Assembly: GCA_013003535.1 (NCBI GenBank)
Contig: JABDIY010000058.1
Location: 1-64,000, forward strand
Reading direction: 5' to 3'
Length of the DNA stretch: 64,000 bases
From: Acidimicrobiales bacterium
GTDB taxonomy: Bacteria > Actinomycetota > Acidimicrobiia > Acidimicrobiales > SZUA-35
A program made the position numbers and the translations under genes. Positions 36,203-47,013 of the stretch are shown here, piece by piece; position 1 is the first letter of the stretch; each line of letters opens with the position of its first letter. Under the pieces are notes generated by a model. That model made no database searches and was not told the origin of the DNA. It saw only the letters and a list, made by a program, of their open reading frames with translations.

Positions 36203-37374
36203 TGGCACGACGAAGAACATTCGGAACGACCTGGTGGGGTGAGGCGTGGATTAGATCCTTGGAGGAGAGCCGTTTCGCGCATGAGGGTCGATTGGGGCGG
36301 GGCCGTACCTATGCCCGACAGGATCGAGTCCGCGAGGTTGAATTGTCGCCGGGCCGGGTAGACGCCCGCGTTTGGGGAGCGTCGTTGTACTCCACGCACC
36401 TCGGCGTTCGGCTCTTGAACGATGATCAATGGGACCGGCTTCTCGACTTCATCGTCGCCAAAGCCGTCTACAGCGCTGAGCTACTAGCAGGGAGCATGCC
36501 CCAGGGATTGGCGGCCGATGCAGCCGCAGCTGGCTCACCACTCTTGCCTGAGCCCGGAGACGTCAGTTCGCACTGCTCCTGCCCTGACGACGGTGACCCG
36601 TGCAAACATTCCGCCGCCCTTTGTTATGTGGCTGCTGACCTGATCGACACCGACCCGTTCGTTCTGATGTTTCTCCGGGGCAAAGATCGCGCGTCGATGG
36701 TAGAGGAGCTTCGAGAGCGTCGTGCCAGGGCGGCTGGCCACACCCGCCGAACCCGCAACGATGTCCGGGCCGGAGGCGATCGGGTAGATCCGGTCGAGGC
36801 CTTCGCCGCCCCGCCTCGACCGCTCCCGAATGCTCTGCCGCTCGTTGAGGCGCCCGGTCGGCCGAACCCGCTGCGATCAAGTGCTCCCGCCGATTCCGGA
36901 CTGAACACCGCAGGTCTGGAGCAGTTGGCCGCTGACGCTGCTCGGCGGGCGTGGGCCATGCTCCTGGGCGAATCGTCCAGTGCATTGGAACTGTCTCCAC
37001 AGGCTGACCTCATTCGACGAGCGGCTCTCAGACACGAGCGGCACCTCGATCCCACACCTATTTTGGAACTGTTCGACGGAACCGCCGAGGAACTGGAGGC
37101 AGGCGCCATCGCCTGGTCGATCGCGGGCGGACCGGGCACAACCGTTGCCACGGTCAAGTGGACCGCCACCGCCGAGCAGCTCGCTCCTGCCCGGAGTGCA
37201 CTGCTGGAGGCCGTGCCCGAGGCAAAGCTGCGAAAGTCCGGCAATGCGGTGCACGCCGGATCGATCCAACTCCGGTTGGACCAGAGCGGCGAGTGGTGGC
37301 GATTCGAAGCGCACGACCGGCTGGGCTGGGTTCTCGCCTCCGGTCCCTTCTCCAGCCCGGCCGAAGCCATCTGA
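36202..37374 (+). CDS. SWIM zinc-finger protein
   Basis: A 390-aa protein beginning with the family opening FGTTWWGEAWIRSLE. The SWIM zinc-binding motif CSCPDDGDPCKHSAAL near residues 115-130 has CxC...CxH spacing. The remaining two thirds is helical and Ala/Arg-rich with no clear catalytic motif. SWIM proteins are frequently encoded next to SNF2 helicases in Actinobacteria, and here ATG 36202 shares a base with the helicase stop, so the two probably act together on DNA. The segment RYARQDRV-like basic N-terminus could bind nucleic acid; this is inference. Confidence 0.88.
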   Translation: MARRRTFGTTWWGEAWIRSLEESRFAHEGRLGRGRTYARQDRVREVELSPGRVDARVWGASLYSTHLGVRLLNDDQWDRLLDFIVAKAVYSAELLAGSMPQGLAADAAAAGSPLLPEPGDVSSHCSCPDDGDPCKHSAALCYVAADLIDTDPFVLMFLRGKDRASMVEELRERRARAAGHTRRTRNDVRAGGDRVDPVEAFAAPPRPLPNALPLVEAPGRPNPLRSSAPADSGLNTAGLEQLAADAARRAWAMLLGESSSALELSPQADLIRRAALRHERHLDPTPILELFDGTAEELEAGAIAWSIAGGPGTTVATVKWTATAEQLAPARSALLEAVPEAKLRKSGNAVHAGSIQLRLDQSGEWWRFEAHDRLGWVLASGPFSSPAEAI

Positions 37375-37399
37375 TCGGTTCAAGTTGCTCCGAAGTGGG

Positions 37400-37405
37400 T
37401 ACGTT
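37400..37405 (+). promoter_or_regulatory. -10 box, leaderless lhr
   Basis: TACGTT with 7 nt to GTG 37413. It favours this start, 85 codons inside the longer open frame, and gives lhr its own promoter after the SWIM gene. Confidence 0.6.
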
Positions 37406-37412
37406 TGTTCCC

Positions 37413-41954
<4,542 letters not shown>

Positions 41955-41962
41955 CCCACCCC

Positions 41963-41986
41963 GTTCGCTGAAACTGTTCGCTGAAA
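41963..41986 (+). repeat. 11-bp direct repeat at the left edge of the TIR element
   Basis: GTTCGCTGAAA occurs at 41963-41973 and 41976-41986. The second copy overlaps the first three bases of the left inverted repeat. It may be a footprint of insertion or excision, or an independent duplication. Confidence 0.8.
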
Positions 41987-42061
41987 TTCCTGTGGATACC
42001 CACATCTGGTGTGGCTGAGCTAGGGGCAGAAAGTCGATTTGTAGCTATCAACAGGGATTTG
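41984..42061 (+). repeat. Left inverted-repeat arm
   Basis: The outer part is 41984-42005 (AAATTCCTGTGGATACCCAC then AT). The inner part is 42038-42061 (starts TTTGTAGCTATCAACAGGGA). Both are perfect reverse complements of the right arm. TGTGG-ATAC-CCACA inside the outer part can also fold on itself. Confidence 0.92.
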
Positions 42062-42191
42062 GCCCGATCCGACCGAAACGAATCGGTTGGCACTACGGTG
42101 GACCGCCTCGCTCGCAGATGCGATGGTGTCCACGCCCTGAATCTGCCGCACAACTGCAGCGCTTCAGGCGCCTCAAGAGCGGAGAATCCAA

Positions 42192-43127
42192 GTGAACGAT
42201 TCCAGAGTGCTGGAACTGTTCCGGCAACAAGGCGGGGTCGTCCACCGCGAACAGGCCAAGGTGGCCGGGCTGACATACCGCCAGATCGACTACCGGCTGC
42301 AACGAGGTGATTGGATCAAGTTGCGGGACTGCGTTTACCAGCACGCGGCATTCCCCGAGTCCGACCTCCTGCGGATGTTCGCACTCACGTTGGGAGGCGC
42401 GGGGCATGTGAGTCACCGATACGCAGCTCGCCTCTATGGACTTGACCTTGTTCAGAAGGCCAGACCAGAAGTAACAACCCGCCCCAGTCTTGGCCTGACC
42501 TATGCAGGAGTGATTGCACACGAATCGACACAACTGGAAACCGCCGATCTCACCTGGATCAACGGCCTTCAGGTGAGCGGAATCGAACGGACGCTCATGG
42601 ACTGCGCAGCCGTCATCCATCAGAAGTGGAAAATCCTTGCGCTCATCGATCAGGCTCGCATGATGAAGCTCACCACGCCGACAAAACTACGACGCTGCCT
42701 CGCTGTCCATGCCCAGCGGGGCCGCAACGGTACGGTCAACTTTCGGAATGCACTGGAGCATGTCACCGATTCTGTTCCGCCAATCGGCCACCTCAGCCGG
42801 CAGGCATCACAGATCGTGACAAGTGGGGGCCTGCCGGAACCTCGATTCGAAGAGCAAATCTTCGACAGATACGGAAACTTCATTGCACAGGTCGATGCAT
42901 CCTGGCCGATCGGTTACGTGCATTTCTATGACGGCTTCGGGCCTCATCGGTCGCGGCGCGCTCAGACCAACCGCGACATCATGCAGCGCGCCCGCCTTCG
43001 CAACGAGGGAATCGTCGTGGATGAGTTCACGTATGACCAAATCAACGACGACCCGGCATTCGTTCTCCGCACATCGATCCAGGGATATGCACGGGCGCTC
43101 GAACAGTTTCGGGGACGCACCGGGTGA
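42192..43127 (+). CDS. AbiEi-type winged-helix plus DUF559/Vsr-like nuclease-fold protein
   Basis: A 311-aa two-domain protein. Residues 1-80 match the N-terminal AbiEi antitoxin-type winged helix: LFRQQGGVVHREQAKVAGL, YRLQRGDWIKL, VYQHA and HVSHRYAARLYGL. The C-terminal 95 residues follow the DUF559/Vsr-like PD-(D/E)XK layout: EPRFEEQIFDRYGNF, AQVDASWP, VHFYDGFGPH, TNRDIMQRARLRNEGI. The Asp of VDASWP is kept, while the acidic residue expected two positions before YDG is Phe, so nuclease activity is doubtful. GTG 42192 has GGAG seven bases upstream, and a -10-like TACGGT is at 42094-42099. It is the only gene inside the inverted-repeat element, and no AbiEii-like toxin gene is adjacent. Confidence 0.8.
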   Translation: MNDSRVLELFRQQGGVVHREQAKVAGLTYRQIDYRLQRGDWIKLRDCVYQHAAFPESDLLRMFALTLGGAGHVSHRYAARLYGLDLVQKARPEVTTRPSLGLTYAGVIAHESTQLETADLTWINGLQVSGIERTLMDCAAVIHQKWKILALIDQARMMKLTTPTKLRRCLAVHAQRGRNGTVNFRNALEHVTDSVPPIGHLSRQASQIVTSGGLPEPRFEEQIFDRYGNFIAQVDASWPIGYVHFYDGFGPHRSRRAQTNRDIMQRARLRNEGIVVDEFTYDQINDDPAFVLRTSIQGYARALEQFRGRTG

Positions 43128-43133
43128 CGCCTT

Positions 43134-43211
43134 CAAATCCCTGTTGATAGCTACAAAGCGGCGTTCTACCGGCGTGATAGCCACAACCAATGTGGGTATC
43201 CACAGGAATTT
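43134..43211 (-). repeat. Right inverted-repeat arm
   Basis: The inner part is 43134-43157 and the outer part 43190-43211. They begin 6 bp after the gene's stop codon. The 32-bp centre has the same length as in the left arm and matches it at 17 of 32 positions by my count, which supports common origin of the whole 78 bp. Confidence 0.92.
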
Positions 43212-43229: not shown

Positions 43230-46067
43230 TTAGAGGGTGGCAATTGCGTCGAGGGGGTTGAGCTTGGCGGCTCGGCGAGCCGGAAGGTAGGCCGCCAGCA
43301 CGCCGATCAGGCCCGACATCACCACGATCACCGCCAATGTTGTCCAGGGGATTGCCACCTGGTCGATCACCGTGTCGGGAATCGCTCGAACCCCGGCGAT
43401 GCCGAACAGGATCCCGAGCGCAATACCGAGTAGCGCACCGAACAGGCTCACCATGATCGCTTCCCAGCGGATCGTAGACATCAGCTGGCCGCGGGTCATA
43501 CCGACCGCTCGAAGCAAACCGATCTCTCGGGTTCGCTCCAACACCGAGAGAACGATGGTGTTGACCACACCGAAGAACGCCACCACTAGCGCCAGCCCCA
43601 GCAGTCCGTTGATAAGCACCAGCAAGCCGTTGATGCCGCTTTCCAACTCCTGCTGCAGATCATCGTTGTTGAATACCTGCACGCTCGGATAGTTGGATCC
43701 CAGATTCTTGGCGGCATCGGTAGTTGCGGCGATGTCGGCACCGGCGCTGATAGTTGCGCCGATCGATTCGATTGGAGCGTCGTCGTCGTGCTGTAGCAAC
43801 AGCGAGTTGTCCATCAGCATGGTGCCATTTGTAAAGTTCTCATTTGCGATGATTCCTGCAATGGCCAACTGCTCGGTCACGCCATCTTCAAATTCAACGT
43901 CGAGAGTTTGACCAACCCGAAGGCCGCGATCGTCGGCGAGAGACGTGGTGACAACGACAGCGGTCCCGTCGGAAAGCCCATCGAAGCTACCTTCGCTGAG
44001 GTTGTAGGTGAGAACCGATTCGCCGGTGCTGGCGGTGAAGCTATCTGCTCTTAACACGTCGCCGTCGGGTCCGCCGAGACGGATCGGAATCGACCGGTAT
44101 TCGCTCACCGCACCGATCCCCTCAAGCTCGAGAAGTGCCGCCGCAAAGTCGTCGGGCAGAGGCTCCCCGAATTCAGTGCTTACGAATAGATCGGCACCGA
44201 TGCTGTTGTCGAGCACGTCGGTGAGGCTGGTTTTCAGCGATTGGCCAAGCACCGAGACCAGCGTCACCAAAGCCAGACCGATCATGAGCGCCGTGGCGGT
44301 GGCCGCGGTTCGTTGCGGGCTGCGGGCGGCATTTTCCCGAGCGATGCGAGCCATCTTGGTCTCAGCGCCGCCCCGGAACGAATGAACGAGCAGTCGAAAT
44401 CCGTCGGCCAACGCTCGCGGGCCTGAGAAGAGAAACATTGCGCCCAGCGCCCCGAACATGGCCCCGAAGATGATCGTGACCACCTGACCGGCGCCCGAGG
44501 GCGGAGTGAAGACCTGATCTTCGGCGCCGTCCTGGCCTGGCACGGTGATTTCACCGGTGATCCCGGTGCCGAACACCAGCGCAACAAGACCCCCGACGAG
44601 CAGCGCGACGCCCCCGACCAGCAACAGCACACCGCTGATAGTTCCGAGGAGGCCAACTGGTCCCGATCGTCCCAGCGCTTGCACCGCTAGACCAGCAAAA
44701 AGGCCAGAGAGGAGTGCAACGCCAACGAAGGTGAACACTGCACCAGCACCGAGAAGCGTCAGGGTGCCGCTCAGTCCCGCCGCGCCGGTGAGCCCATAAC
44801 CGACGGCGAACAGGCCAACCGCGGTGATGAGTGCACCAACCAGAACCCGGACCCGGCCGTTCCCGGGCTGAACGCCTTCGTTACGAATCGCCTCTACCGG
44901 TGAGATCTTGCCCGCCTTGAATGCCGGTAGCAGAGCGGAAACCAACGTGGCGACGATTCCAACGATCAGCGCAACGATGACGGTGCGAAGGCTGATGACG
45001 GTGCCGGTCTCGGGAAAGCCTCCCTGGCTTTCGAACAGCGCTTTGATGAGTTCAGCTACTCCGACACCACAGACAATTCCCAACACCGATCCGATGACGC
45101 CCACCAGGATCGCTTCGATGAAGATCGTATTTCGAATCTGACCCCGGCCTGCGCCGATGGCGCGTAACATGCCGATCTGTTGAATGCGCTGGCTGACCAG
45201 GATGGCAAAGGTGTTGTAGATGATAAACAGGCTCACGAAGAGGGCTACCAGCGCAAAACCCAGAAGGATGTTGCCCAGGATGCTGATCACCTGGTTGAAG
45301 TCCTCGCTGTCTTCGGCGCTGGCCTGGGCCTGGTCGATCACCTCAACGCCCTCGGGCAGCAGTGGCTCGATTGCCGAAAGTACGGCGGACGGGAGGACTC
45401 CCGGCGCAGCCTGGATCTCCATTGCGTCGAGCAGCCCCACCTTGTCGAATTGCTGTTGGCCGGTGGGTAGATCGAACAAGGTGAACCAGGCGCCGCCGGC
45501 CGTAAACGACACAATGCCGTCGACGGAGAAAACCTTGAGGCCGGTCGGGGTCTGGAATGTCACTTCTTCGCCTACTCCGACTCCAAGCGCTTCGGCCTGT
45601 TCCACGTTGATCGCAACGGAGTTCTCACCGGAGGGAGCGGAACCATCGACCAGTTCGAATCCACCACCTTCCTCGCTGGGCCCGTTCCAGGAGAACGTGA
45701 GTATCGGTGGCCCCCCTGGTGTCTGAGGCTCGCCGTCCACGTCGAGCCCGATGAAGCCGTTGGCACCTTCGTAGGCAACAAAGCCGTCTACCTGGGCGAC
45801 CTCGTCAAGGGCAAGTATGTCGTCCAGTAGGGACTCCGGAATGGTTCCCGGTGTCTGCCCGAAGGAGTCGTCAGTGATCGGCTGGACTCTGGCATCGAGG
45901 TTCTGGTTGGCCCGCTCAACGATGCTGTCGAAGACCTTTCCCAACGAATCGGAAATGATGAACGATCCACTGACGAACCCGACACCGAGGGTGATCGCCA
46001 GAACAGTAAGAGCCAGGCGCCCCAAGTTGTTGCGGATGCCGCGGAGCGAGAGTTTGGTAATGATCAT
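43230..46067 (-). CDS. ABC transporter permease with duplicated FtsX/MacB core
   Basis: A 945-aa membrane protein with the layout of actinobacterial FtsX-like permeases: a first membrane helix (LGRLALTVLAITLGVGFVSG, residues 11-30), a large extracytoplasmic domain (about 35-270), and three helices (about 280-390). Further hydrophobic segments, a second extracytoplasmic domain and a final three-helix FtsX core (ALVVAFFGVVNTIVLSVLER onward) follow. These transporters do mechanotransmission or lipoprotein/lipid extrusion rather than import. ATG 46067 follows the ATPase stop by 10 nt with GAGG as ribosome site. The longer open frame merely overlaps the ATPase gene. Confidence 0.92.
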   Translation of the reverse strand: MIITKLSLRGIRNNLGRLALTVLAITLGVGFVSGSFIISDSLGKVFDSIVERANQNLDARVQPITDDSFGQTPGTIPESLLDDILALDEVAQVDGFVAYEGANGFIGLDVDGEPQTPGGPPILTFSWNGPSEEGGGFELVDGSAPSGENSVAINVEQAEALGVGVGEEVTFQTPTGLKVFSVDGIVSFTAGGAWFTLFDLPTGQQQFDKVGLLDAMEIQAAPGVLPSAVLSAIEPLLPEGVEVIDQAQASAEDSEDFNQVISILGNILLGFALVALFVSLFIIYNTFAILVSQRIQQIGMLRAIGAGRGQIRNTIFIEAILVGVIGSVLGIVCGVGVAELIKALFESQGGFPETGTVISLRTVIVALIVGIVATLVSALLPAFKAGKISPVEAIRNEGVQPGNGRVRVLVGALITAVGLFAVGYGLTGAAGLSGTLTLLGAGAVFTFVGVALLSGLFAGLAVQALGRSGPVGLLGTISGVLLLVGGVALLVGGLVALVFGTGITGEITVPGQDGAEDQVFTPPSGAGQVVTIIFGAMFGALGAMFLFSGPRALADGFRLLVHSFRGGAETKMARIARENAARSPQRTAATATALMIGLALVTLVSVLGQSLKTSLTDVLDNSIGADLFVSTEFGEPLPDDFAAALLELEGIGAVSEYRSIPIRLGGPDGDVLRADSFTASTGESVLTYNLSEGSFDGLSDGTAVVVTTSLADDRGLRVGQTLDVEFEDGVTEQLAIAGIIANENFTNGTMLMDNSLLLQHDDDAPIESIGATISAGADIAATTDAAKNLGSNYPSVQVFNNDDLQQELESGINGLLVLINGLLGLALVVAFFGVVNTIVLSVLERTREIGLLRAVGMTRGQLMSTIRWEAIMVSLFGALLGIALGILFGIAGVRAIPDTVIDQVAIPWTTLAVIVVMSGLIGVLAAYLPARRAAKLNPLDAIATL

Positions 46068-46077
46068 GTTTGTGGCC

Positions 46078-47013
46078 TCAGTCGCCCAGATGACGCATCT
46101 TGTCGAAGACGCTGTCGGCGGTGGGGTTCTGCATTTCGTCCACGATCTCGCCATCGGCGAGGAAGAGAACGCGATCGGAATAGCTGGCCGATACGGGATC
46201 GTGGGTCACCATGACGATGGTCTGGCCGAACTCCCGAACGGCGAGCTGCATGAAGCTGAGGATTTCGGCACCGGTTTTGGAGTCAACGTTTCCAGTGGGT
46301 TCGTCACCAAAGATGATGGCGGGTCGGCTGGCCATGGCCCGAGCAACAGCGACGCGCTGTTGCTGACCACCGGAGAGCTCGTTTGGTCGGTGTCCCAGTC
46401 GATCGCCGAGCCCCACGGTGTCAATCACCTGTTTCATGAACTCCTTGTCTGGGGTGGTCCCTGCCAGATCAAGGGGGAGCGTGATGTTTTCTTCGGCACT
46501 GAGTGTTGGGATCAGGTTGAAGGCCTGAAAGATGAAACCGATCTGATTCCGCCGCAATTCGGTGAGCTGCTTGTCCTTGAGCGACGAAAGCTCCACCGAT
46601 CCCACATACGTCTGGCCCGATGTGAGCGAGTCCAAACCGGCCATGCATTGCATCAGCGTGGACTTGCCTGACCCGCTGGGGCCCATGATCGAGGTGAAGC
46701 GTCCGGTCTCGAAACCAACCGATACGTCGTACAGCGCTCGGACCTCGGTCTCGCCCTTGCCGTAAATTTTCGTGGCGTTGCGACAGTACGCGGCGAAGTT
46801 GGCCGTGCTGGTAACCCCGCTCATTGTTGGGGCCAGCGGGCCGGTGAGCGGCCCGTGGGGTGTGGAGGGTGGAGAGGCCGCTACGTTCGAAGGCGGAGCC
46901 AACGGCGATTGCGGTAGCGGTGGCGAGTCAGGGGAATCGAATGGCGAATCGTGTTGGGCGGGTTCGGCCCAGGGCGAGCCAAGGGGATCAGGCGTGGGTG
47001 CCGCTTCTGTCAT
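46078..47013 (-). CDS. ABC transporter ATP-binding protein (MacB/LolD-like)
   Basis: A 311-aa ATPase partner of the adjacent FtsX-like permease. Residues 1-63 are a Pro/Ser-rich extension not found in most relatives. The ATPase core has Walker A IMGPSGSGKSTLMQCMAGLD near residue 109, Q-loop IGFIFQAFNLIPTLSAEENI, signature ELSGGQQQRVAVARAMASRP, Walker B AIIFGDEPTGNVDS and the H-switch VMVTHDP. The signature and Q-loop are of the MacB/LolD/FtsE type. ATG 47013 is supported by its -10 box. An internal ATG at codon 64 would give a normal-length protein, so the extension could be optional. Confidence 0.95.
   Translation of the reverse strand: MTEAAPTPDPLGSPWAEPAQHDSPFDSPDSPPLPQSPLAPPSNVAASPPSTPHGPLTGPLAPTMSGVTSTANFAAYCRNATKIYGKGETEVRALYDVSVGFETGRFTSIMGPSGSGKSTLMQCMAGLDSLTSGQTYVGSVELSSLKDKQLTELRRNQIGFIFQAFNLIPTLSAEENITLPLDLAGTTPDKEFMKQVIDTVGLGDRLGHRPNELSGGQQQRVAVARAMASRPAIIFGDEPTGNVDSKTGAEILSFMQLAVREFGQTIVMVTHDPVSASYSDRVLFLADGEIVDEMQNPTADSVFDKMRHLGD

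Follow-up and report, generated by a model that had tools for sequence, protein, structure and literature searches.

The window, the stretch of 64,000 nucleotides analysed here, contains a unit of one gene and two inverted arms lying between an lhr-type helicase gene and an FtsX-type ABC permease gene. The features of this locus are as follows:

37158-41954, + strand: lhr-type helicase gene (start uncertain), neighbour at the left border of the insertion site
41984-42061, + strand: left arm, 78 bp, imperfect palindrome and member of a dispersed family; half-sites at 41984-42004 (+) and 42040-42060 (-)
42192-43127, + strand: gene of 311 aa for a predicted AbiEi-type wHTH plus Vsr/EDxHD homing-endonuclease-like protein (Pfam, profile and Foldseek matches)
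42192-42791, + strand: AbiEi-like region, about residues 1-200 (Foldseek 6y8q, E 2.3e-5; Pfam AbiEi_4 at residues 5-45)
42783-43100, + strand: putative nuclease domain, about residues 198-303 (profile matches to 3hrl and 3r3p, Foldseek match to 3r3p, alignment)
43134-43211, - strand: right arm, 78 bp, inverted copy; half-sites at 43135-43155 (+) and 43191-43211 (-)
43230-46154, - strand: FtsX-type ABC permease gene (start uncertain), neighbour at the right border of the insertion site

The two arms are identical at 63 of 78 positions when aligned in inverted orientation. Their alignment confirms the architecture described in a first-pass annotation of the window, with a perfect outer block of 22 bp and a perfect inner block of 24 bp enclosing equal 32-bp centres, and the reported distances to the neighbouring stop codons are also correct (29 bp from the lhr stop at 41954 and 18 bp from the FtsX-permease stop at 43230). 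Not recorded in that annotation is that each arm is itself an imperfect palindrome, built of two 21-bp half-sites, one resembling AAATTCCTGTNGATANCCACA and the other its complement. The gene is the only one between the arms and is free-standing in intergenic DNA rather than within an intron or intein. No AbiEii toxin gene lies next to it, its immediate neighbours being the helicase and permease genes. The unit had been said to encode no transposase, and this holds, as Pfam and structural matches identify AbiEi and EDxHD-like folds.

Pfam assigns AbiEi_4 to the window protein and MTES_1575 or DUF559 to most of its homologues, and profiles of the family match 3hrl, the homing endonuclease I-Bth0305I (3r3p), AbiEi (6y8q) and, weakly, Vsr. 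An AlphaFold model of the protein (pLDDT 86) is matched by Foldseek to the AbiEi antitoxin over about 200 residues and to I-Bth0305I over the last 100 residues (E 0.03, TM 0.72-0.79 on the target). The protein is predicted to combine a DNA-binding region of AbiEi type with a domain resembling Vsr and the EDxHD homing endonucleases, the latter having putative nuclease activity. D235 and D262 do not vary among the aligned homologues and H252 hardly does; the window protein retains all three. Position 245, usually a glutamate, is F in the window protein, and most members of its close clade have F, L or M there. All acidic residues are retained in most homologues beyond this clade, and the lhr-linked orthologue of one congener (G002) keeps the glutamate. 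No match to the window protein was found on phages or plasmids.

Dispersal of the arms in the host genome

With the left arm as query, full-length copies are found on further contigs of the genome from which the window derives (the host genome). A half-site pattern allowing up to two mismatches gives 30 forward and 30 reverse matches there, grouped into about 26 loci, and the reversed pattern gives none. The repeated arms and gene-less copies that the first-pass annotation had proposed to look for are thus present; arms that occurred nowhere else and varied freely, which it held would speak against an element, are not what the genome contains. Some loci comprise three or four regularly spaced half-sites, and a 48-bp variant of the arm is a nearly perfect palindrome, AAATTCCTGTTGATAGCCACA-NNNN-TGTGGCTATCAACAGGAATTT. 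The same half-site pattern in 60 relatives matches in one genome only, with two matches in total. An exact-pattern scan of a wider collection of genome contigs returned no arm, and a protein scan of that collection returned six loci.

Arm copies in the host genome are mostly intergenic and often lie 4-30 bp downstream of a stop codon, with genes taken from a simple ORF script. A second AbiEi-type paralogue in this genome, on contig C159 (L003, L044), has an unrelated arm of its own, which is dispersed too (at least 17 matches). No near-identical second copy of the window gene was seen. Pairs of arms, inverted or palindromic, can also enclose other single genes: a DUF899-like gene in the host genome (L034, 3506-4519) and, in G042, an LLM-type oxidoreductase gene (L236, 2792-3722) and a maleylpyruvate-isomerase-like gene (L237, 2767-3733). 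With regard to the idea that such genes are cargo, the orthologous loci were not syntenic.

When arm copies from four genomes are aligned, their boundaries are sharp, the 5′ tip is conserved and the sequence upstream is rich in C. The tips read CAAATTYCTG or other sequences and, judged by eye, none carries a GTAG or CGTC tag. The tip is mostly turned towards the stop codon of a gene running in the same direction, often 5-40 bp away, and folding energies fall below those of shuffled sequences (median z -4 to -10). A search of the arms against Rfam matched no known RNA. Integron attC sites were ruled out by reasoning from the sequence, since the arms are inverted pairs that lack the expected core.

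Stable folding and a position at gene 3′ ends are what ordinary transcription terminators would also exhibit, and chance inverted repeats might share them. However, matches to intrinsic terminators are no commoner in the arms than in shuffles, and the sequence-specific dispersal, together with the family-wide flanking described below, far exceeds controls. The shuffle scan and the dispersal and flanking controls refute terminators or chance as a sufficient explanation, and we regard it as almost certainly wrong. The first-pass annotation had offered operators or terminators as an alternative; the terminator half finds no support in the scan, whereas an operator is in keeping with what AbiEi proteins do and may contribute to the explanation.

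The lhr/FtsX interval in related genomes

Two genomes of the same genus, G001 and G002, carry an orthologue of the window gene (57-61% identity) between the same lhr and FtsX genes. These orthologues are likewise flanked by inverted arms, of 90 nt at 88% and 97 nt at 74% complementarity, which have the architecture found in the window and differ from it in sequence beyond the tip CAAATTCCTG. The window gene is co-oriented with lhr, whereas the orthologues in G001 and G002 point the opposite way, as would follow if the stretch between the arms had been inverted or if the insertions were separate. The G001 orthologue (L153, 3297-3875) lacks its N-terminal third, with the break adjoining an arm, and G001 arms are among the most numerous. 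The G002 gene appears to be full length, and no dispersed copies of its arms are among the matches listed.

An empty site, which the first-pass annotation had suggested seeking at this locus, exists in G003, where lhr and FtsX almost touch and the gene is missing, having either never been there or been lost. G012 has a gene-less inverted pair of its own arms in the lhr/ABC interval (L240, contig C12, 1837-1914 and 2019-2096), about 100 bp apart, and its homologous gene is located on another contig. Sites elsewhere in the host genome also differ in length from their counterparts, as estimated from protein alignments: a gap bearing an arm measures 153 bp there against about 27-56 bp in relatives, and a gap with two arms 401 bp against tens of bases in G003. 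No target-site duplication was seen by eye, the empty sites of relatives being too diverged for comparison at base level, and no insertion intermediate was seen.

These comparisons bear on the proposal, made in the first-pass annotation, of a single-gene mobile cassette in which gene and both arms move as one unit. Such a cassette would account for the occurrence of gene and arms at differing loci in different genomes, for the gene-free site in G003 and for the reversed orientation of the gene relative to G001 and G002. It is nevertheless very improbable, given that three related species have the gene at one and the same site, that gene-less arms abound, and that no near-identical gene pair was seen in the host genome. 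What multiplies is the arms. The notion of a nuclease-linked selfish element remains the leading one, but that of an element hopping mainly as a whole is not supported.

Flanking arms across Actinomycetota

The association of gene and arms was assessed in 57 homologues, 29 from relatives in the order of the window and 28 from a phylum-wide draw, by comparing the two flanks of each gene in inverted orientation at a threshold of 30 bits. Inverted arms flank 32 of the 57 homologues, compared with 3 of 285 mismatched flank pairs and 1 of 88 other genes; by this test the remaining 25 homologues have no flanking arm. The control with other genes initially gave 4 of 91, from which we removed three AbiEi-type genes, and its one remaining positive is the DUF899 gene between two arms of the host genome. 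Arm placement is regular, with medians of 87 bp upstream of the start and 5 bp downstream of the stop, and most of the flanking arms fold into hairpins. The flanking arms at L224 (G061) and L211 (G115) look less like simple hairpins than like direct repeats in tandem, and may be repeats of another kind.

Dispersal was surveyed with composite queries of 15 and 16 arms, the G048 arm being left out, against the genomes from which the arms came; most genomes in the analysis as a whole are metagenome-assembled. The matches listed land on the arm belonging to the genome in question. Among them, the first set has copies besides the flanking pair in 11 of its 15 genomes and the second in about 11-12 of 17, counting perfect palindromes on both strands, a fraction that is not valid for all such genes because the survey started from loci with known arms. 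Seven genomes (G002, G011, G013, G021, G077, G095 and G097) have little or nothing beyond the flanking arms among the matches listed. In Tsukamurella tyrosinosolvens NCTC13231 (NZ_LR134454.1), a DUF559/AbiEi_4 gene lies between 42-bp inverted arms, and this arm is found in only three records of 7.3 Gb of plasmid sequence, all of that organism, at five places. Together, this suggests that the AbiEi/nuclease gene family is often paired with a genome-specific hairpin repeat across Actinomycetota, in an undescribed, transposase-independent partnership. The unit in the window is an instance of a phylum-wide pairing of a gene family with its own palindromes, not a one-off.

Arms of this type could instead be REP or MITE elements that owe their movement to a RAYT or other IS transposase acting in trans, with the AbiEi-nuclease gene as a passenger or bystander. 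A search of sixteen genomes for the Y1 transposase family (PF01797) found a Y1-like gene in six, the host genome among them, and the enclosure of other genes by arm pairs would also suit movement in trans. However, Y1 was not found in the other ten genomes, including the single-contig G038, which has dispersed arms, so RAYT-driven spread cannot be general. In addition, the Y1 copy of the host genome (L255, contig C209, 1425-1721) stands alone on a contig without an arm by pattern search, and unrelated arms repeatedly flank the same gene family. Movement in trans is accordingly considered improbable.

The reading that we favour, with slightly better than even confidence, is that gene and arms form a REP-like replicator pair, in which the protein recognises its own palindromes and helps to spread them; we infer binding, cleavage, mobilisation and causation alike. 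Under such a mechanism the AbiEi region would bind the palindrome as its operator, and the nuclease domain would nick or cut there, either on the palindrome itself or on the hairpin that it extrudes. New copies of the arm could then be seeded, and the arms kept alike, by recombination or by copying during repair, and the protein and repeat would diverge together as an outcome of this copying and homogenisation. We count in favour of a replicator pair the dispersal within the host genome and near-absence in relatives, the dispersal of other arms in the genomes they come from, the flanking of 32 of 57 homologues with regular placement, the Tsukamurella record, the sharp boundaries and polarity of the copies, the empty or shorter sites, the AbiEi and I-Bth0305I folds, the ten genomes in which Y1 was not found, the G001 and G002 orthologues with the same arm architecture in another sequence, and the binding of AbiEi proteins to cognate repeats. 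Counted against it are the 25 of 57 homologues that lack an arm, the lost glutamate, the lack of a visible target-site duplication or insertion intermediate, the full-length G002 gene without dispersed copies and the truncated G001 gene with many.

The main rival is a regulator with dispersed operators. Here the protein would act on transcription or DNA topology by binding the palindromes at gene ends and around its own gene, something else would spread the repeats, and the nuclease-like domain would be degenerate or serve another role. AbiEi-family proteins are known autoregulators acting on paired inverted repeats, and those studied bind inverted repeats of 23 bp with 3 or 13 bp between them, with neither of two proteins tested binding the repeats of the other (PMC7319586). 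The 21-4-21 geometry of the short arm is similar to these operators and would be compatible with a candidate binding site. The location of arms at gene 3′ ends and the active-site glutamate missing from the clade of the window protein also agree with a regulator. Yet this explanation, taken as a whole, is rather unlikely, as it accounts neither for the fresh multiplication of repeats in each lineage nor for the arm after the stop codon of the gene, and most homologues outside the close clade retain all acidic residues.

If replication of the arms by the protein is the correct reading, AbiEi-Vsr fusions all over Actinomycetota could more generally multiply their own operators without being transposases, as an independent counterpart to REP/RAYT; this wider proposal is plausible but tentative. 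The association described here ties an antitoxin-type DNA-binding region and a homing-endonuclease-like domain, unrelated to the partner enzymes of REP, to genome-specific palindromes across a phylum. AbiEi/DUF559 fusion genes would thereby gain a candidate function; they occur several to a genome, and their usual annotation is antitoxin or unknown. Many natural protein-DNA pairs would be on offer for reading recognition specificity, and the spread of repeats driven by a nuclease that is not a transposase becomes a testable question.

Relation to known systems

The closest parallel is found in the REPtrons, REPINs and TIRtrons of the REP/RAYT system, in which a gene also lies between inverted palindromes that occur dispersed at intergenic 3′-end sites. 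There, too, the repeat is specific to species and gene, and several gene-repeat pairs are possible per genome. REP-type palindromes are common in bacteria, and their CGTC class has no known partner enzyme (PMC3733652). However, REP/RAYT features a Y1 HUH (IS200/IS605-type) transposase where the unit described here encodes an AbiEi wHTH with a Vsr/EDxHD-like domain, and REP repeats carry a GTAG or CGTC tag beside the hairpin, neither of which is visible by eye in the arms. Unlike REP/RAYT, the unit is known from the present work in Actinomycetota. Because it has no Y1 HUH transposase, it lacks the defining component of a REPtron despite its REPtron-like working (PMC3733652, PMC8266576).

AbiE type IV toxin-antitoxin systems share the AbiEi fold, which is N-terminal in the window protein, and putatively also an operator of inverted half-sites of about 21-23 bp with a short spacer; there, as proposed here, every AbiEi protein would be selective for the repeat that belongs to it. 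AbiE differs in having an AbiEii toxin neighbour; the unit has none and is thus not an AbiE toxin-antitoxin operon, and its repeats lie on both sides of the gene and across the genome, with an extra nuclease-like domain in the protein. The EDxHD homing endonuclease I-Bth0305I and the Vsr nuclease share the C-terminal fold and conserved residues of the D/H/D type. Unlike these, the window gene resides in no intron or intein, encodes an AbiEi fusion, is flanked by inverted palindromes and belongs to a clade that has lost one glutamate. The unit is probably not a classical homing element.

The first-pass annotation knew of no described element with this structure, and we likewise found no description linking AbiEi/DUF559 to REP-like repeats in the open-licence PMC papers searched. 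No known kind joins the AbiEi-nuclease family to dispersed repeats; classed by its logic alone, the unit would be of the REPtron kind.
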